Positions 3,823-19,310 of a DNA stretch of 20,358 nucleotides are shown here, piece after piece. The stretch is from a virus. The notes below the pieces were generated by a model. It made no database searches, was not told the origin of the DNA, and saw nothing but the letters and a program-made list of their open reading frames with translations. The position numbers were made by a program, and so were the translations under genes. Location: positions 1 through 20,358 of IMG/VR virus record IMGVR_UViG_3300026094_000050; one strand, given 5' to 3'. How positions within the stretch are numbered: position 1 is the stretch's first letter; every line of letters starts with the position of its first letter.

Positions 3823-5291
3823 GCTGCTGTCCACGGGCTCCACCCTTTAGGCTTGATCGGCTTAGCGTGCTGCTTACTGCCCCACCGCCGGCCTGCTTTG
3901 CCGGCCAGCTGCGGCCCCTCGTACACCACTAGCCCATGTTGTAAGGCGTCATGTACGTGCGACTCAAATGTTTTATCCGGCACATCGCGAGGCTCGCCAC
4001 TCTTGTCATGGGTTGTGTACTTGTACCCGCCCATAAAGCCCTCGAGCAACGTCGTGCACTCGTGATTGATCAGCATGCCTGGCCTTCCCTCGATCATACG
4101 ATTGAGAGGACGCCGAACCGCACCCAGTCTTGTATCCAAATCACTCGGCCCTGCTCGGGGCGTAAAGCCCTCTTTACGCAAAATCTCAAACGGCGTTGTC
4201 GCGCTAACCTGGTTGCGCTGGTTACCCGCCGGGTCACACCACATATCGTAACTGTTGCACTCAGGAAACCGCGTGCGCAGGTACTGCTTTAACTTAGCAG
4301 CGAACTCTTCGATGCCCATGTTCTGGCTTACCAGCTCAGACAATATGAGCCACTGCCCAACGGCATTCTGCTGGAACATCACCGCCGCCGGCGTCAGACC
4401 AAAGTCCAGCCCAATTGACAGAGGGTGGTGTGCGCTCGGCTCAAGCGGCGCCTCGGCTTTATGCACTCGCACGTTAAACTGCGGAAACACCGGCAGGCCA
4501 TCTCGACGGGTGCCGTACTCACCATGCACGTGCACGTTCAACCAGTCCTCGTCCCGCCCTGACGCCAGTAGCAGCTCGTAATAACCATCAGGCAGGTGCT
4601 CTTTGTTCTCCGCATTATCTGACATACCCGAGGGCTGGCGAAACAACTGCTTGACCTCACGCCCAAACTTCTTGGCGTACTCCTGCAGGTTGGCGTCGTG
4701 CTCGTCAGACTCGAACAACTTGTGCCAGAAGGTACTGACCGCCGGCGGGTTAGTGTCCATGATCACCCCCACCCACGTTGGCGGCGCGTCACCCTGCTTC
4801 GGATAACGGCCGATACGACCCAGCAGGTTAATAAAAATGTCCGGGTTGACCTCACGATACTCGTTGACCCATGCACCGGTGAGCTCGAGCGACAAAAGGT
4901 TGCGCACGTCCTCGGAAGACTCCAGCGGCCGAAACATCCACTCACTCTCGACCCGCGTACCGTCGGCCAGCGGGAACTGGAGCATAAAAGTGTTAGTGGT
5001 AGCGTACCAGCGGCCAGCTAGCCCAGGCGGCAACCAGTCGTGTACCGTCTTAATCGTCGTGTCTTTCAACATCCGCACAGTGTTACGGATGACAGCAAAG
5101 CGGGTTTTGCGTACACCTTTTTTGTCAGGCTCCTGCAAGCAAGCCCGGCGCACCAGCTCCATAGCGCACGCGACCGACTTACCCGAGCCCAGTGGCCCCA
5201 TTAGCCCACGCACCACTGCATTCGAGGCCATCATCTCCTCAGCAATCGGTGAGGGCTTAAAGTTTATGCCGTTTTCTGGCTCATCGCTCAT
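3819..5291 (-). CDS. terL: Terminase large subunit (packaging ATPase and nuclease)
   Basis: This 490-aa protein has both expected domains. The N-terminal ATPase has Walker A GPLGSGKS at residues 32-39, a Walker B-like stretch ending GAWVNEYREV with the catalytic Glu near 144, and the coupling motif VIMDTNPP near 177-183. The C-terminal RNase H-like nuclease shows SIGLDFGLTPAAVMF with Asp near 296, WCDPAGN near 351-357, and a final Asp in SHVHDALQHG near 448. It pumps DNA into the procapsid through the portal and cuts concatemers. Its ATG overlaps the small-subunit stop (ATGA), with AGGT about 7 nt upstream. Length fits podovirus terminases (450-600 aa). Whether the phage uses cos, pac or direct terminal repeats cannot be told from the protein. 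Confidence 0.95.
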   Translation of the reverse strand: MSDEPENGINFKPSPIAEEMMASNAVVRGLMGPLGSGKSVACAMELVRRACLQEPDKKGVRKTRFAVIRNTVRMLKDTTIKTVHDWLPPGLAGRWYATTNTFMLQFPLADGTRVESEWMFRPLESSEDVRNLLSLELTGAWVNEYREVNPDIFINLLGRIGRYPKQGDAPPTWVGVIMDTNPPAVSTFWHKLFESDEHDANLQEYAKKFGREVKQLFRQPSGMSDNAENKEHLPDGYYELLLASGRDEDWLNVHVHGEYGTRRDGLPVFPQFNVRVHKAEAPLEPSAHHPLSIGLDFGLTPAAVMFQQNAVGQWLILSELVSQNMGIEEFAAKLKQYLRTRFPECNSYDMWCDPAGNQRNQVSATTPFEILRKEGFTPRAGPSDLDTRLGAVRRPLNRMIEGRPGMLINHECTTLLEGFMGGYKYTTHDKSGEPRDVPDKTFESHVHDALQHGLVVYEGPQLAGKAGRRWGSKQHAKPIKPKGWSPWTAA

Positions 5292-5713
5292 GCGTTGACC
5301 TGAATGTTAATCATAAACGGTGCGGTGTTTGCGTTGGCATCTTCTTGCTTCGAGGGCTTCTCAAGCTCTGCATACTTGCACACATCCTCAATGGCACGAA
5401 GCCGAACCGCCGGGTCAAGCGTGCGATCCAGTGCAATAGCACCAACCTCCTCGATTAACGTAGAAGCAAGGCGCTTGGTTTTCAGCCGGGCCTGCGTAGT
5501 CTCCTCGTCGATCATGCGCTTGTACGAAGCAACAGCTCGCTTTACTGGCACCGAGTTACACACGCGCTCGTAGTCATCCTGCGACAGATCGTACTTGTCC
5601 CGCAGCTCATCAGGCGGGTGGTACTCAAGCGCAATATCGTATGCCAGCTCCTGCAGCCAATTACTAGGCTGGGCCGGCACAGGCTCTGGCGGGTTGTGCT
5701 TTTTTAAATCCAT
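5288..5713 (-). CDS. terS: Terminase small subunit (DNA recognition)
   Basis: The likely protein is 141 aa starting MDLKKHNPPEPVPAQPSNWL. Residues 20-60 (ELAYDIALEYHPPDELRDKYDLS) resemble the N-terminal helix-turn-helix region of small terminases. A long central helical stretch follows (AVASYKRMIDEETTQARLKTKRLASTLIEE), then LDRTLDPAVRLRAIEDVCKYAELEKP, a common feature of these proteins. It would bind the packaging site and recruit the large subunit. The frame is open upstream to about 5881, but that extension encodes an unlikely membrane-like segment within non-coding DNA, so I start at the ATG at 5711-5713. That start has no good Shine-Dalgarno sequence. It is the promoter-proximal gene of the leftward operon. 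Confidence 0.82.
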   Translation of the reverse strand: MDLKKHNPPEPVPAQPSNWLQELAYDIALEYHPPDELRDKYDLSQDDYERVCNSVPVKRAVASYKRMIDEETTQARLKTKRLASTLIEEVGAIALDRTLDPAVRLRAIEDVCKYAELEKPSKQEDANANTAPFMINIQVNA

Positions 5714-5785: not shown

Positions 5786-5945
5786 AAAAATTGGCCTGAG
5801 TTGTGTGGCTGGTAGGCTAAGGCCGACCGCACCCGCGCGATTTTTGGCCCCCGCCCCCCTGTTGCGCTGTCCCTGGAGCAAGGGGGTACCCCGTGAATGT
5901 ATACACTGCTGGACACGTTACACGCTGCAGCGATGCAAAAGTGCC

Positions 5946-5972: not shown

Positions 5973-6044
5973 GGGGTTTTACAATGCCCGCAAAATCAAG
6001 GGGTTACAGCCGGCACAGTAACATCGGTAACGGTCTGTTACCGC

Positions 6045-6098
6045 ATAAGTTATTGATTTTATTGATTTGTTACTAATGTTACTATTGTTACTATATAA
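6045..6098. other. AT-rich segment with tandem 9-bp units, candidate DNA unwinding element
   Basis: Only 9 of 54 bases are G or C. From 6051 to 6095 the sequence falls into five consecutive 9-bp units: TATTGATTT twice (6051-6059, 6060-6068), then GTTACTAAT, GTTACTATT and GTTACTATA (6069-6095). Thus AT-only-type repeats adjoin iteron-type repeats in the same register, as in many replication origins. Unwinding activity is inferred from composition and layout. Confidence 0.5.
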
Positions 6099-6192
6099 AC
6101 TAACCCTTTTATAGGATTTAGCCAGTAACGGGGTTTTACAGTTTGCCCGCATCCTGCAGATATATATTTCACCCCTAGTTTTAACGGTAACA

Positions 6193-6247
6193 ATGGTAAC
6201 GGCCGGAACTTTCCAGCATAATCAATCACTTACATGGTAACGGCCGG
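6193..6247. repeat. Direct repeat ATGGTAACGGCCGG, two copies 41 bp apart
   Basis: The 14-mer ATGGTAACGGCCGG is present exactly at 6193-6206 and 6234-6247. It extends the GTAAC iteron with the palindrome GGCCGG-like core CGGCCGG. The 41-bp offset is about four helical turns, so both copies face the same side of the DNA. It lies between the AT-rich segment and the rightward promoter and could be a higher-affinity binding site for the iteron protein. Confidence 0.55.
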
Positions 6248-6399
6248 TTTTTGTAAAAGTAACAATGGTAACGATTTGCGTATAGCGTGTTTGTCATGCC
6301 AATGCGCCTTGTCAGTATTTCCTGGAACTGTCGCACGGCGTTGACGATACCCCGAAGCCCGCGTCGTGCCGCCTTTACAATCTTTTTTCGCTAATGGGG

Positions 6400-6428
6400 T
6401 TGACATCCTACAAACGCGCCTTTACGAT
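6400..6428 (+). promoter_or_regulatory. Sigma70-like promoter for the rightward replication operon
   Basis: A perfect −35 TTGACA (6400-6405) is followed after exactly 17 bp by −10 TACGAT (6423-6428, four of six matches including the key A and T). Transcription would begin near 6435, leaving a leader of about 33 nt before the first ATG at 6468. It is the best bacterial promoter seen in the control region and points into the long gene array. A second GCCTTTACAAT box at 6371-6381 echoes the −10 region (GCCTTTACGAT at 6418-6428) but has no −35 partner at a workable distance. Confidence 0.65.
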
Positions 6429-6467: not shown

Positions 6468-6650
6468 ATGAAAGACTTTTCCGCTTTTACACGATCCGCG
6501 CTTGCTGCTAAGGGGATCCACATCATGGGCCTTATCGCGCTACCTGATGCCAATGGTAGCTTTGCAAACTGTCAGCGTGGTTACCGCGTAAATGATAATG
6601 GTTGCGGCCGTATCTGGACGCATGCCGAAGTCATCACGGCCGCGGCATAA
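6468..6650 (+). CDS. Small hypothetical phage protein, first gene of the replication operon
   Basis: This 60-aa protein begins MKDFSAFTRSALAAKGIHIM and ends with a short segment CQRGYRVNDNGCGRIWTHAEVI. It has two cysteines (in CQRGY and GCGR) and no membrane segment or signal peptide. The ATG at 6468 is chosen because GGAGATTGACACC precedes it, a leader nearly identical to that of the next gene (GGAGATTGACGCT), and because it follows the promoter at 6400-6428. As the promoter-proximal gene it should be among the earliest expressed phage products, a position often used by host-takeover proteins. I do not recognise a characterised family and assign no function. Confidence 0.7.
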   Translation: MKDFSAFTRSALAAKGIHIMGLIALPDANGSFANCQRGYRVNDNGCGRIWTHAEVITAAA

Positions 6651-6679
6651 GCGCGGCTCATACCCTGGAGATTGACGCT

Positions 6680-7360
6680 ATGACAATGCAAAACATTTCT
6701 ACGATAGCAAACCGAGCTGCAGCTTTGGGCAAGGTTAAACCGGCTGAGCGCTGGGATGCGTTTCAAACTATGGTTGCCGCTGCAGACCTGCAGGATGCCG
6801 CCCAGGTGGACGCGCTGGCCGCTTTATATGGCACGTTCGCGCCTAAGCCTACCCGGCGCAAGGTGAGCTCAGTTTTTGACTGGCTGGCGTTGGCCGTGAA
6901 TCCGAAAGACGTTCGTTATTACCTGCATAACATAAGTGTGCAAGACGGCATTGGTTATGCCACCGATGGGCACCGGCTGCATATAGCACCAATGCCTTAC
7001 TATTACACCGACGGGCTTTATGATACCAGCGGCGTGCCAGTAGAGGACCATGGCCGTTTCCCTGACGTGCATCGGGTTATTAATTCAGTGACGCCGGCGC
7101 GCTTCCATTCCTTGGCGCATGGGCTCGGTTACATTGTGGCCGCGCATGATCGGGGCAAGCCGGTGGAATACCAGACGCTGCATGTGATGGATGATTTGGT
7201 GCATGTGAACCGCCGCTATCTGCAAGACGCGCTGCGCTTTTGCGATGGTGAGGGTGCCCGGTTTGGCCAGGAGGGTCCAGATAAAGGCGTGCTGTTGCAG
7301 CTAGATGGTGACCGCATGGCGATCATCATGCCGGTGAATATGTCACGGGTTCAGCAGTAA
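6680..7360 (+). CDS. DnaN-like sliding clamp, reduced (two-domain size)
   Basis: This 226-aa protein carries several hallmarks of bacterial beta clamps in the right order. They are YATDGHRLHI at residues 93-102 (DnaN has ATDGHRLA), GRFPDVHRVI at 125-134 (DnaN has DGKFPDYxRVIP), VNRRYLQDALRF at 176-187 (DnaN has VNxxYLLDAL), and a C-terminus DRMAIIMPVNM at 211-221 (DnaN ends in a strand near VVMPMRL). At 226 aa it is far shorter than DnaN (about 366 aa, three domains) and matches the size of two-domain clamps that form trimers. The start ATG at 6680 has GGAG 10 nt upstream; the frame is open a little further but without a ribosome site. Lying in the same operon as a family A polymerase, it likely gives processivity. 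The fold call is motif-based. Confidence 0.62.
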   Translation: MTMQNISTIANRAAALGKVKPAERWDAFQTMVAAADLQDAAQVDALAALYGTFAPKPTRRKVSSVFDWLALAVNPKDVRYYLHNISVQDGIGYATDGHRLHIAPMPYYYTDGLYDTSGVPVEDHGRFPDVHRVINSVTPARFHSLAHGLGYIVAAHDRGKPVEYQTLHVMDDLVHVNRRYLQDALRFCDGEGARFGQEGPDKGVLLQLDGDRMAIIMPVNMSRVQQ

Positions 7361-13812: not shown

Positions 13813-14181
13813 ATGGCAGATACGAACACTTTGATCAGCTACTACATCCAGCTGCGGGATCGCAAGAAAGAGATCCAAGCGCGGCACAAGGAGGAGCTGG
13901 AGCCGATTGATGCTGGGCTAATGAAGCTTGAAGGCATTTTGCAGGAGCGGCTGAACGAAATGGGTGTAGAGAAGATGGGCGGTGACACTGGCACGGTGTT
14001 CACCAAGGTAAACACAAGCATAACGGTAGAGGATTGGGATAGTGTAGTGGAGTATGTAAAAAATAACGATGCGTTTGATCTTCTGGATCGGCGCGTAAAC
14101 AAAACAACCGCGCAGGAGCGTGGTGATGTGCCGGGTCTTCGGACTTCGCAAATCAAAACGATTCAAGTACGACGCAAGTAG
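13813..14181 (+). CDS. Conserved coiled-coil phage protein upstream of SSB
   Basis: This 122-aa protein begins with a long charged helix ([20 protein letters not shown], then a leucine-rich helix [18 protein letters not shown]). A beta part follows ([20 protein letters not shown]), then [14 protein letters not shown] and a C-terminal IQVRRK. Proteins with this order (helix, GTxYxxxxTSxTVxDxDxF, LLxxRVxKxAVxE, PPGL, VRR) are common beside SSB and recombination genes of Gram-negative phages but lack a known function. Ribosome site GGGG lies about 8 nt upstream of the ATG, 12 bp after the helicase. A DNA-repair or SSB-partner role is inferred from context only. Confidence 0.75.
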
Positions 14182-14191
14182 GAGCGACATC

Positions 14192-15160
<969 letters not shown>

Positions 15161-15206: not shown

Positions 15207-15506
15207 ATGCAGACGATTCAGGAAAACAACGAGAAGTTTACGCGCCTCGCCGCAAAAGCTTGGGATGAGTTCTATGAGAGTTGCAGCGAAAGCTCGAATC
15301 TTAACGACAAAAGCATCGCCGCACTGATGGGCGTGTCCCGGCAGACGGTCGTGAATTGGTCATCCGGCAAAAGCTCGCCTTGTGTCGGTACAATCATGCG
15401 GATTAAGATGGTTGCCAATGCTATAGATAAAGCACATGCGGATGAGAAGCTGCCAGCCAAGTCCAGAAACAAGCAGGACGCGCTAGTGCAGGAAATCCTG
15501 AAATAA
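15207..15506 (+). CDS. Helix-turn-helix DNA-binding regulator
   Basis: This 99-aa protein has a clear helix-turn-helix at about residues 33-56: NDKSIAALMGVSRQTVVNWS, with the ALMGVSRQTVxNW pattern of Cro/XRE-like proteins. The rest is helical, with a basic C-terminus (KLPAKSRNKQDALVQEILK). Ribosome site GGAGG lies 6 nt upstream of the ATG. It is bracketed by a hairpin upstream and a reverse-facing terminator downstream, so this gene seems to be an insulated unit within the operon. Possible targets are the inverted repeats (5768-5785, 5946-5972) or the GTAAC iterons in the control region; it may be a repressor or a replication-initiation factor. No partner is proven. Confidence 0.8.
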   Translation: MQTIQENNEKFTRLAAKAWDEFYESCSESSNLNDKSIAALMGVSRQTVVNWSSGKSSPCVGTIMRIKMVANAIDKAHADEKLPAKSRNKQDALVQEILK

Positions 15507-15550: not shown

Positions 15551-18160
15551 ATGAAAGATAAGCTAACTGCGATAGTATCCATTTCGGATGGACGTGTAAA
15601 GCATTACTGGTTTGACAATAGAGAGGAAGCGTACAGGGCCGCTGTACAATTTGCACAAGAAGGAAACTACGGCGATCTGTACTGGTCGATGGCGGAGTTC
15701 CACAGCGAGCAGCGCACTCAAGATAATGCGAAAGAGTTGCGTGCATTCTGGCTGGATCTGGACTGCGGCGATGGCAAGGGCTATGCCACTAAGCAGGACG
15801 CGCTGAAAGCGCTGGCCTCGGCACCGCTGCCGCCGTTTTCGATGCTGGTGGACAGTGGCAACGGGCTGCATGTTTACTGGCTGCTGGATGAGCCGGCACC
15901 TGTAGAGGATTGGAAACCAGTAGCCGAGCACCTGAAGCGCGCCTGTATTGTAAAGCAGCTGCATGCTGACCACGCGATCACCGCCGATGTAGCACGGATT
16001 TTGCGCGTGCCTGGCACTTTTAACTGCAAAGACCCCGAGCAGCCACGTCCGGTCAAGGTGCTTAAAAAGCGCGAGGGCCGGTACACCTTGCAGGAGTTTC
16101 AGCAGGCGCTGCCGTCAGTTGGGCCCATCCGTGACGCTAAGCCAAAGCGTGAGCCCGATGAGTGGAGCGTGGACGCGCAGGATTTCCCGCCCGCGTACGT
16201 AGAAAACGTGCTCCGGGGCTGCAAACAGGTGCGCGAAGCGGCAAAGGTGCAATCGGCAGGCATCGCCGAGCCGTACTGGCGTGCCGTTTTGTCAGTTGTC
16301 TACCGTTGCGAGGGTGGCGATGAGCTGATCCATAAGATCAGCAAGGGCGACGAGCGCTACGATGCAGATGAAACACAGCGCAAGGCTGAATCTACGGTAG
16401 GGCCAGCAACCTGCGAGCATTTCTCGGCAGTTAACCCGGAGGCGTGTGCCGGGTGTCCGTTTGCCGGAGCGGTGACCAGCCCCATTGCCATCCCAGCACC
16501 AGCGCCCGTGCCAGAAGGCGACGAGCAGGAAGAGGTGCAGCGGGATAACCGCGTGAACGATTGGCACATCACCGCCAAGGGCGTTTATAAGGCCATGGAG
16601 AATGACGAGGGCGGCATCGAGAAAGTGTGGGCCGCTATGACCCCCGTCTATGGTGAGACGTTCCGCACCCGCCGAGGCGAGACAGAAACAGACGCTGACG
16701 ATGCAAAGGTGATGCTGAAGTGGCTGCGCCCGGACAACCGTTGGCGCACGACGATGATGCCGCTGTCCTTGCTCGGCAGTAACACGAAAATGATGGAGTG
16801 GGCCGGATCGCAAGGGCTTGCGAGTCTACTACCCAACGGGAAGGCATGGCAGATGTACATTAGCGAGCTTACAAACAAACTGCTGCAAGAGCGCCGGGTC
16901 ACCGAGTACTACGATCGCCTGGGCTGGCATGCGGACAACGGCGAGTTTGTGCTGGGCACGAAAAAGGTCACCTCGCAGGGGGTGTCCGACGCCACGATTG
17001 AGCGCAACAGCCCGCTCTCGCAGCTAACGCCGCAAGGTGATCTGGACAAGTGGAAAGCTGGCATCAAGCTGCTGGATGTAGAAGGGCTGGAGAAGCACCA
17101 GTTCTGCATACTTGCTGGTTTTGGCTCACCGCTGCTGGATCTGATGGACGTTTCGGGTGCGGCTATCTCGCTGGCCGGCGCATCGGGCAAGGGCAAGACG
17201 CTCGCTGCCAGGGCAGCACTGTCTATCTACGGCAACCCCGACCAGCTGTTCCAGTCTGCGGATGCGACCCGCAACTCGACGGATGTGCACCTGGGCACCC
17301 TGCATTCAGTGCCGTACCTGATGGACGAAATCACCAGCATGAGCGACAAGGCTATCGGTGATCTGCTGTACAAGATCGCAAACGGGCGCGGCAAGGACAC
17401 GCTGCAGCGCAACAGATCATGGAGCAACGGCGGCAGCTGGCGGCTCGTGGCGTTCCTGACAACCAACAGCCCCATCATGGAGGCGAGCCAGTCGCACTTG
17501 ACAGAAGCGCAGCGCAACCGCGCTATCGAGCTGATCATCGAGCAGGCCGTCCCTGCCCAGCAGGCCACTGAGCTGTACAAGGCAACCGGGCAAAACTTCG
17601 GCGTTGCGGGCGAAGTGTACATGCAGTACCTGATTCAGAATCGCGACACTTGCCGGGATTTGGCCCAGCGCGCGGTCGAACAAGTTAAGGATGCGTTTGA
17701 GGGACAGGACGCGCAGCGCTTCGGTATTTGGGCACTGGCTGCAGCACTGGCCGGCGGCATGATCGCCAAGAAGCTGGGCTTGATCCCGTTTAGCCCATGG
17801 AAAGTTATTGAGTCCGTGGTGCCGACGCTGCAATCGCAAGGCGAGCAAACCCAGACGCCGGAACAGCAGTTCCTCGATGTCCTGCGCGAGTGGCTTACTT
17901 CAGAATCCGATCATGTGTGCGTGTGCACCAATGGGCGCATGGGCTTTGTGGATGACCCGGTGGCCCGGCGCGACGGCGAGGATCTGTACATTCACAGCAC
18001 CCGGTTTAAGCAGGAGCTGCGGGATCGCAATGTTAGCCTGGCTGTTGTGCGCAAGCTGATCGCAGAGAATGCAGAGACAGGCATCAAGGTGCGGTTGTCT
18101 CAGGGCACCCCGCCAGTGTCAGCGCTGCGGCTGCCCGCCAGCATGGTCTACAACGACTGA
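15551..18160 (+). CDS. Primase-helicase (AEP-like primase plus DUF927-type ATPase)
   Basis: This is the largest protein of the window, 869 aa. The N-terminal part fits a RepB/AEP-like primase: FWLDLDCG with Asp69 and Asp71, SGNGLHVYWLL with His107 (102-112), and ADVARILRVPGTFN (146-159). A cysteine/histidine group Cys288, His290, Cys299, Cys302 (CEHF...CAGCPF) probably binds zinc. The C-terminal ATPase has Walker A GASGKGKT (543-550), Walker B VPYLMDEIT (587-594) and a polar sensor FLTTNSP (636-641), resembling DUF927-type superfamily 3-like helicases. It would lay primers and unwind the fork for the family A polymerase. The ribosome site is weak (AGAGAG about 8 nt upstream). It converges on the metallophosphoesterase gene with 7 bp between stops. 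Confidence 0.86.
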   Translation: MKDKLTAIVSISDGRVKHYWFDNREEAYRAAVQFAQEGNYGDLYWSMAEFHSEQRTQDNAKELRAFWLDLDCGDGKGYATKQDALKALASAPLPPFSMLVDSGNGLHVYWLLDEPAPVEDWKPVAEHLKRACIVKQLHADHAITADVARILRVPGTFNCKDPEQPRPVKVLKKREGRYTLQEFQQALPSVGPIRDAKPKREPDEWSVDAQDFPPAYVENVLRGCKQVREAAKVQSAGIAEPYWRAVLSVVYRCEGGDELIHKISKGDERYDADETQRKAESTVGPATCEHFSAVNPEACAGCPFAGAVTSPIAIPAPAPVPEGDEQEEVQRDNRVNDWHITAKGVYKAMENDEGGIEKVWAAMTPVYGETFRTRRGETETDADDAKVMLKWLRPDNRWRTTMMPLSLLGSNTKMMEWAGSQGLASLLPNGKAWQMYISELTNKLLQERRVTEYYDRLGWHADNGEFVLGTKKVTSQGVSDATIERNSPLSQLTPQGDLDKWKAGIKLLDVEGLEKHQFCILAGFGSPLLDLMDVSGAAISLAGASGKGKTLAARAALSIYGNPDQLFQSADATRNSTDVHLGTLHSVPYLMDEITSMSDKAIGDLLYKIANGRGKDTLQRNRSWSNGGSWRLVAFLTTNSPIMEASQSHLTEAQRNRAIELIIEQAVPAQQATELYKATGQNFGVAGEVYMQYLIQNRDTCRDLAQRAVEQVKDAFEGQDAQRFGIWALAAALAGGMIAKKLGLIPFSPWKVIESVVPTLQSQGEQTQTPEQQFLDVLREWLTSESDHVCVCTNGRMGFVDDPVARRDGEDLYIHSTRFKQELRDRNVSLAVVRKLIAENAETGIKVRLSQGTPPVSALRLPASMVYND

Positions 18161-18167
18161 AGCATTC

Positions 18168-19310
18168 TTAGCACATCTCGGGCGTCAGCACTTGGCGTCC
18201 GACGTACCCATGCTCGGCGTGGTAAGTAATCACCTGTCCTTGGCGTGCTGATTTGAATCCGTGCCGGCTGGCATACGAATCCCTGGCTGACAAAGTTCCA
18301 TGCTGCTCCACGGTCATAAGCTCGCTTTCTTTAGCGGCATAGTGGTGCAAATGACCAATATGTGCATAGCTATATTTGGTGCGGCCAAAGATCTCACGAA
18401 ACTCTGCAGCCAGTGCCCGGTCAAGCTGGTCAATCTTTTTCAGGTGGCCATGGTGAAAGAACAGGCTCGTCTTGCCATGTTCGATTACGTAAAACGGTGC
18501 GGGTGACTGGTCTATGCGCAGTCTCGGATTGTCCCTGTAGCGGTCGGCAAAGGATTCGCGCAGCCAGATCTCAGATACTTCATCGTGGTTGCCCTCAGCC
18601 ATGATCACGTCCACAGTCTCATAGCGCTCAAGCAGCATCTCGATTATTTGCCGTGTTATGCGTATGCCCGTGCGAACTAACTTAGGAAAGCGGGTGTCGG
18701 TATCTAGCTGATGCTTGCTGGTAGGCGTCACACTCTCGATGCCGTCGAAATGCAGGAAGTCTCCCATTTGTGCAAACACTGCACGCTGGGCGATAGGTGC
18801 CTGCTCAATCGCAGCAGCGAAGAACTTCATAATTAAATCTTCAGCAAGGCTAGTGTCCCAGTCCTCGCCCGCTTCCTCGCCCCAGGCAAGCATGCCAATG
18901 TGCGCGTCGGTCAGCACAAACAAGTTAAGTAAATCGTTTCGGGGTTTGATCTTCTGGCGGATACGAGGTGCAGCAGGTATATCTTCTTTTAATGCAGCGA
19001 TTGCGTTCTGCATCGCCTCATACTGCGCTTGCTTGTCGCGGTCAGTCTTGTACCACTCAAGCTTTGTCTCGCCTGTCTCGGGATTCCACAGCACTGAGCG
19101 GCCACGAAACATCTCGTCGTCGCGCTCGTTAAACTGCTGGGTCTCAAATTTTTGCTCGTGCGTCTTGCCTTCTCGCATGCGCTCAAGGCGGCGCTGCAAT
19201 GTGCGAGTGTTAATACCAAGCAAGGCTGCGGCCCCATCCTGAGTGCCGGTTTGCTCAATAGCAGCAAGAATTTGTGCGTTGGTTAAGCCTTTAGTGCCTA
19301 AAGTGCTCAT
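18168..19310 (-). CDS. Metallophosphoesterase with N-terminal helix-turn-helix
   Basis: This 380-aa protein has residues 8-46 forming a FIS/Hin-like helix-turn-helix (ILAAIEQTGTQDGAAALLGI then NTRTLQRRL), followed by a linker to about 125. The calcineurin-like phosphoesterase motifs follow: DAHIG (Asp135, His137), MGDFLHFDG (Asp184), EGNHDE (Asn241, His242), FFHHGHL (His287, His289) and HIGHLHH (His320, His322). These ligands form a two-metal site. Phage proteins of this architecture are often annotated as DNA-binding phosphoesterases; substrates are unknown. It lies at the 3' end of the leftward lysis operon, 2 bp after the holin gene, with AAGG 8 nt before the ATG. It might be a nuclease or nucleotidase acting late in infection. 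Confidence 0.88.
   Translation of the reverse strand: MSTLGTKGLTNAQILAAIEQTGTQDGAAALLGINTRTLQRRLERMREGKTHEQKFETQQFNERDDEMFRGRSVLWNPETGETKLEWYKTDRDKQAQYEAMQNAIAALKEDIPAAPRIRQKIKPRNDLLNLFVLTDAHIGMLAWGEEAGEDWDTSLAEDLIMKFFAAAIEQAPIAQRAVFAQMGDFLHFDGIESVTPTSKHQLDTDTRFPKLVRTGIRITRQIIEMLLERYETVDVIMAEGNHDEVSEIWLRESFADRYRDNPRLRIDQSPAPFYVIEHGKTSLFFHHGHLKKIDQLDRALAAEFREIFGRTKYSYAHIGHLHHYAAKESELMTVEQHGTLSARDSYASRHGFKSARQGQVITYHAEHGYVGRQVLTPEMC

Follow-up and report, generated by a model that had tools for sequence, protein, structure and literature searches.

The replication origins of PICIs and SaPIs, among them those of SaPIbov1 and EcCICFT073, consist of two inverted sets of 5–6-bp iterons around an AT-rich stretch, lie immediately 3′ of the pri-rep gene, and have as initiator a self-loading helicase of the AAA+ class that carries a winged helix at its C-terminus; in SaPI Rep it is the C-terminal domain that reads the iterons. 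The paper in which the EcCICFT073 origin was tested in vivo stated, in 2018, that this organisation occurs in no other known bacterial replicon (PMC6092414). Reading the EcCICFT073 origin here, we find 11 TCTACC units, which follow one another at steps of 9 and 11 bp and are divided between two inverted sets. SCCmec Cch2 also uses its C-terminal domain to bind short iterons downstream of its own operon (PMC7581432), and for that putative origin only three iterons, and neither a two-set mirror nor IHF, have been reported. The PrimQH-type primases of mobile elements join an AEP primase, a zinc/PriCT linker, a helicase (VirE (VapE) or DUF927 among others) and a C-terminal winged helix predicted to recognise origins; the accessible portion of the source describes no cognate origin for them (PMC5862659), and we propose one here.

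The locus in question lies in a virus record of 20,358 bp (the window, by which we mean the whole stretch of DNA analysed). Judged from its sequence and by analogy, region 5994–6272 is very probably the replication origin of the phage, working like a PICI/SaPI origin with added IHF sites. Like those origins it has two inverted sets of short iterons around an AT-rich stretch; it shares the 9-bp step with EcCICFT073, and the primase-helicase proposed to act on it is homologous to SaPIbov1 Rep and has the domain make-up of a PrimQH-type primase. Unlike them, it belongs to a phage without a detected integrase, is placed between terS and the early genes, has IHF sites, strictly spaced, that separate its inner iterons from its outer ones, as well as a 95-bp spacer, and is accompanied by a primase fused to a DUF927 helicase. 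Because the array is about 9 kb from the primase-helicase gene, and not next to it, we do not class it as a PICI origin; the arrays of VapE phages described below do have that position. SCCmec Cch shares DUF927 with the window protein but has no fused primase. Plasmid iteron origins (Rep_3/TrfA type, pSC101, R6K) follow a similar logic of repeats with an IHF/AT-rich region, but plasmid iterons are about 17–22 bp long and form a single direct array, whereas the sites in the window are 5 bp long, follow a 9-bp step and form two inverted sets, which is not the layout of an origin of the Rep_3 type. What is new, and was found nowhere described in the literature that could be searched, is that IHF sites stand between the inner and the outer iterons, that the spacer is fixed at 95 bp, and that the phage appears not to integrate.

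An iteron array at a divergent gene junction

In the window a 750-bp divergent junction separates leftward genes (small terminase, large terminase, portal and scaffold) from rightward genes (PolA-type polymerase, RecB/Cas4-like nuclease, VRR-NUC, SNF2 helicase and DUF927 primase-helicase); apart from DUF927 and a phosphoesterase, we take these names from likeness to annotated phage genes and from established knowledge. Comparison of the whole window with phage records by megablast gave no match. The features that matter here are as follows.

5288–5713, minus strand: terS, small terminase subunit by position, in the leftward late operon adjoining the array
5994–6006, plus strand: third IHF-consensus site (AATCAAGGGGTTA), on the terS side
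6018–6041, no strand assigned: outer iterons of the terS-side half, GTAAC 6018, GTAAC 6027 and GTTAC 6037; offsets the same in relatives L003 and L004, pair also in relative G001
6046–6058, minus strand: perfect IHF-consensus site (TAAGTTATTGATT), at the same offset in relatives
6069–6091, minus strand: inner iteron triplet, GTTAC 6069, 6078 and 6087, 9-bp period, 10 bp from the IHF site
6092–6186, no strand assigned: 95-bp AT-richer spacer, 38% GC against about 55% for the window; proposed melting/helicase-loading region
6187–6209, plus strand: inner iteron triplet of the early-gene-side half, GTAAC 6187, GTAAC 6196 and GGAAC 6205
6220–6232, plus strand: perfect IHF-consensus site (AATCAATCACTTA), 10 bp from the triplet
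6237–6272, plus strand: outer iterons of the early-gene-side half, GTAAC 6237, 6259 and 6268
6400–6428, plus strand: sole sigma-70-like promoter match in the junction, not above chance, outside the array and toward the early genes
15551–18160, plus strand: proposed initiator, from profile and fold an AEP primase, a DUF927 (SaPIbov1 Rep/Cch-like) AAA+ helicase and a C-terminal winged helix (about residues 768–869)

The original prediction for this DNA had counted 14 copies of GTAAC/GTTAC between 5917 and 6272, and we recovered all 14. Dinucleotide shuffles of this 356-bp stretch held a mean of 1.7 copies and a maximum of 7, shuffles of the whole window never placed more than 5 copies in any 356 bp, and exact 9-bp pairs, of which five are observed, numbered at most one in 2000 shuffles. 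The four groups with exact 9-bp spacing that had been described correspond to 6018/6027, 6069/6078/6087, 6187/6196 and 6259/6268, and the reported split in orientation holds, with GTAAC in all six right-hand copies and GTTAC in six of the eight on the left. The unit given at the time, GTAACAWTR, has to be replaced by GTTMC (GTTAC or GTTCC) followed by 4 variable bases. Counted with GTTCC allowed as a variant, the core comprises twelve units, the twelfth being the GGAAC at 6205, which had been missed, as had the three perfect IHF-consensus sites; copies at 5917, 6003 and 6125 fall outside this conserved core. Perfect matches to the IHF consensus (WATCAANNNNTTR) number three in the window and three in the 36-kb G001, all of them confined to the array, and the array with its IHF sites exceeds chance by far and is unique in both.

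The core, read from left to right, consists of three units, an IHF site, three units, 95 bp, three units, an IHF site and three units. Outward from the spacer each half presents a triplet at 9-bp steps, 10 bp, an IHF site, 4 bp and a single iteron, and one further iteron pair on each flank brings the total to 6+6 = 12 units. The outermost pairs depart from the mirror in that their distances are unequal and the terS-side pair is reversed.

Absence of the array from relatives with the same gene order had been named beforehand as part of what would refute the prediction, and the array is conserved. Among relatives retrieved with the large terminase, which keep the junction, 12 of 12 core unit positions are matched in L003 and L004 as in the window, and 11 in G001, where the single right-hand unit was not counted, the table entry there duplicating a neighbour. 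The gaps from IHF site to triplet are 10/10 and the spacer is 95–96 bp in all four. In G002, by contrast, the triplet and the IHF site are pushed apart by 11 inserted bp, one helical turn, and the spacer measures 100 bp. Across 11 two-armed loci the spacer is 95 bp in seven and 96 bp in one. The third IHF site is also present in L002, L003 and G001, in varying orientation. In both the window and G001 the cumulative GC-skew minimum, proposed earlier as a check, coincides with the array or lies close to it, which fits an origin but is confounded because the coding strand switches at the same place.

Recurrence of the array in other phages

We scanned viral contigs for a single arm (TTGATT followed after 10 bp by three GTWMC units with a 9-bp period) and obtained 96 stretches, against a chance expectation put at one or two, although base composition and repeats raise the real background. 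About a third of the hits lie within coding genes, look like chance (e.g. L028, L031, L046, L048 and L050) and were not counted. Arms numbered 130 in the real sequence of the loci and 0 in 1.6 Mb of reversed control, a control that speaks to chance and not to frequency because many loci were pattern-selected. A scan of genome contigs added 23 hits, about eight or nine of them apparently true arrays. Distant arrays were reached by a gapped DNA pattern and not by overall DNA similarity, and the design recurs in many mostly marine phages without a terminase recognisably shared with the window; in most sequences with true arrays, neither the terminase of the window nor anything closely related to its primase is encoded. 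The mirror is not strict everywhere: in many loci outside the window group the second arm is arranged more loosely.

One group has an SU10-like portal and a Terminase_6-type large subunit, with the array upstream of the terminase genes. In three of its members (L034, L039 and L042) the strict mirror with a 95-bp spacer is present, even though the group's DUF927 proteins share no more than about 24–29% identity with that of the window. Of 14 array-bearing contigs longer than 24 kb, 13 carry a DUF927 protein, as against none of 28 comparison contigs. In another group the gene of a VapE-type primase-helicase is followed directly, at its 3′ end, by the array (12 of 12 loci), as it is in the isolated phage APSE-1. 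Among isolated phages, arrays of GTTAC/GTTCC-type units are found in APSE-1, Kosakonia Kc259 and Acidovorax ACF1, and other iterons with the same 9-bp step in Yersinia YeP4, Staphylococcus phiSP15-1 and Paenibacillus GaryLarson. Since arrays occur with differing terminases and track DUF927 or VapE, the array follows the primase-helicase and not the terminase.

Further loci vary the pattern. Yersinia phage YeP4 (L120, 2430–2600) has the same geometry 3′ of its VapE gene with a different iteron (AGACAACCT), so that the spacing stays while the iteron sequence changes. The DUF927 phage Rollin of Pseudomonas has one IHF site and three GCATACTTT units. Two Prevotellaceae contigs (L152 near 1200 and L153 near 1360) carry long, apparently one-sided GTTAC iteron arrays with an IHF-like site, and a Clostridia contig (L146, near 1408) carries a two-sided GTAAC/GTTAC array without an IHF consensus site. 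No similar array was found in VA-RY-3, EXVC031P, HTVC027P or BT50.

The proposed initiator

The protein encoded at 15551–18160 contains a DUF927 domain (Pfam PF06048, E 4e-39, 135 bits against a cut-off of 22.6). A profile built from this protein and 13 relatives matched, among solved structures, SaPIbov1 Rep (8tch_A, E 2.4e-28) and SCCmec Cch (5dgk, E 8.8e-23). In the AlphaFold model of the protein (mean pLDDT 73), the N-terminus matches AEP primases, and the best fold matches for residues 330–869 (Foldseek, VIA-align) are Cch (Z 30.8) and SaPIbov1 Rep (Z 25.5), the overall rmsd being high in both cases since the domains sit in different relative positions. Modelled separately, the C-terminal 129 residues give a winged helix (pLDDT 82) whose best matches are SaPIbov1 Rep 452–555 (Z 9.8, 94 residues, 2.8 Å) and Cch (Z 9.1). 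With a DUF927 domain and a C-terminal winged helix, the protein belongs to the SaPIbov1 Rep/Cch (DUF927) helicase family; against plasmids, the window primase gave distant, partial DUF927/primase matches only.

Both the primase-helicase and the HTH protein at 15207 had been named earlier as candidates for binding the repeats. Of the two we favour the primase-helicase, through its C-terminal winged helix, as the likeliest iteron binder, and not the small HTH protein. That one primase family contains both helicase types, as in the PrimQH primases, would explain how one origin design can serve both.

Origin model and rival explanations

The suggestion that this array is an origin has been strengthened by the exact geometry kept in relatives, by the tight association with primase-helicases across phages without a recognisably shared terminase, and by the homology to SaPIbov1 Rep. 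We propose that the C-terminal winged helix of the primase-helicase binds the iterons, each half offering six 5-bp iterons and one IHF site. IHF, which is probably a structural part of the array, would put a bend into the DNA where the inner triplet gives way to the outer iterons, so that a single helicase hexamer could collect all six sites of that half. Two such hexamers, in mirror orientation on either side of the 95-bp AT-richer spacer and facing each other, would melt this spacer, load themselves and unwind in both directions, and the fused AEP primase would prime for the phage PolA; firing of the origin would be bidirectional. In its boldest form, which we offer tentatively and regard as somewhat doubtful, each half is a counted landing pad, folded by IHF, with one iteron for each of the six subunits of a ring, and 6+6 sites prescribe a double hexamer, head to head, with a fixed 95-bp spacer in between, as a general rule for PrimPol-helicase phages and satellites that can be read from sequence alone. 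Because site number and spacing are fixed, the self-loading double-hexamer model is directly testable. An organisation like that of PICI origins is common here among tailed phages that carry one or the other of two primase-helicase types. This suggests that phages and satellites share one initiation mechanism, and for uncultured marine phages it supplies a rule by which origins can be found from sequence and their likely initiator named. Several observations run against the origin reading: besides the confounded GC-skew minimum and the looser second arms in many loci, the initiator gene is 9 kb away, whereas in PICIs it is just upstream of the array, and the Rhizobium DUF927 phage RHph_TM3_14A has two IHF-consensus sites 318 bp apart in an intergenic stretch (L125, 19442–19760) with no evident iterons.

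The most serious rival is a packaging site next to terS, at which the small terminase would bind the repeats with the assistance of IHF. The cosB site of lambda, which also includes an IHF site, is likewise a set of repeats adjoining terS, and the array adjoins terS in the window group and lies upstream of the TerS/TerL genes in the Terminase_6 group. Lambda cosB has three R sites for TerS (PMC6092414), against twelve units in the window. The same array is found with different terminase families (Terminase_3-like in the window, Terminase_6 in the other group) and beside small terminases without significant similarity to one another, in the VapE group it is at the helicase gene and not beside an identified terminase, and its 6+6 inverted design matches PICI origins, all of which makes packaging an unlikely function. 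A better packaging candidate than the array is a 21-bp block at 5787–5807 (CACACAACTCAGGCCAATTTT on the minus strand) upstream of terS, which is identical in the window and all five relatives compared at the junction, occurs once per genome in the window and G001, and is possibly a late promoter or packaging site.

The divergent junction would also suit an operator whose repeats are bound by a repressor governing both operons, such as the HTH protein at 15207, with IHF shaping the DNA, and this 99-aa protein, kept in close relatives, weakly matches repressor families. A promoter and terminator scan of the junction found nothing at the array, and no sigma-70-like promoter lies within it; the HTH protein had no detected homologue in the remaining array-bearing loci that were compared, which were fragments only, and the VapE-group array is behind the helicase gene. 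We therefore hold it quite improbable that the region is solely regulatory, although origin and operator roles can coexist and the origin may also be autoregulatory. An attachment site combining arm-type integrase sites with IHF sites is brought to mind by lambda-like attP, which shows a comparable mixture of short repeats and IHF sites. An integrase (PF00589) was matched neither in G001, which at 36 kb looks nearly complete in that the protein cut at its left end seems to continue at its right end, nor in four further array-bearing records (the window itself being a fragment), and we give this explanation hardly any credence.

Several other gene products of the window drew our attention. The early gene at 6602–7360 encodes a protein with a weak match to phrog_947, a phage DNA polymerase processivity factor family, and is possibly a sliding clamp. 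A conserved early protein to which no function was assigned, encoded at 14120–15160, ends in a proline-glutamate repeat tail (EPEPEP...). The gene at 18168–19310 encodes a metallophosphoesterase with an N-terminal Fis-type HTH domain, and the protein is 72–78% identical in relatives.
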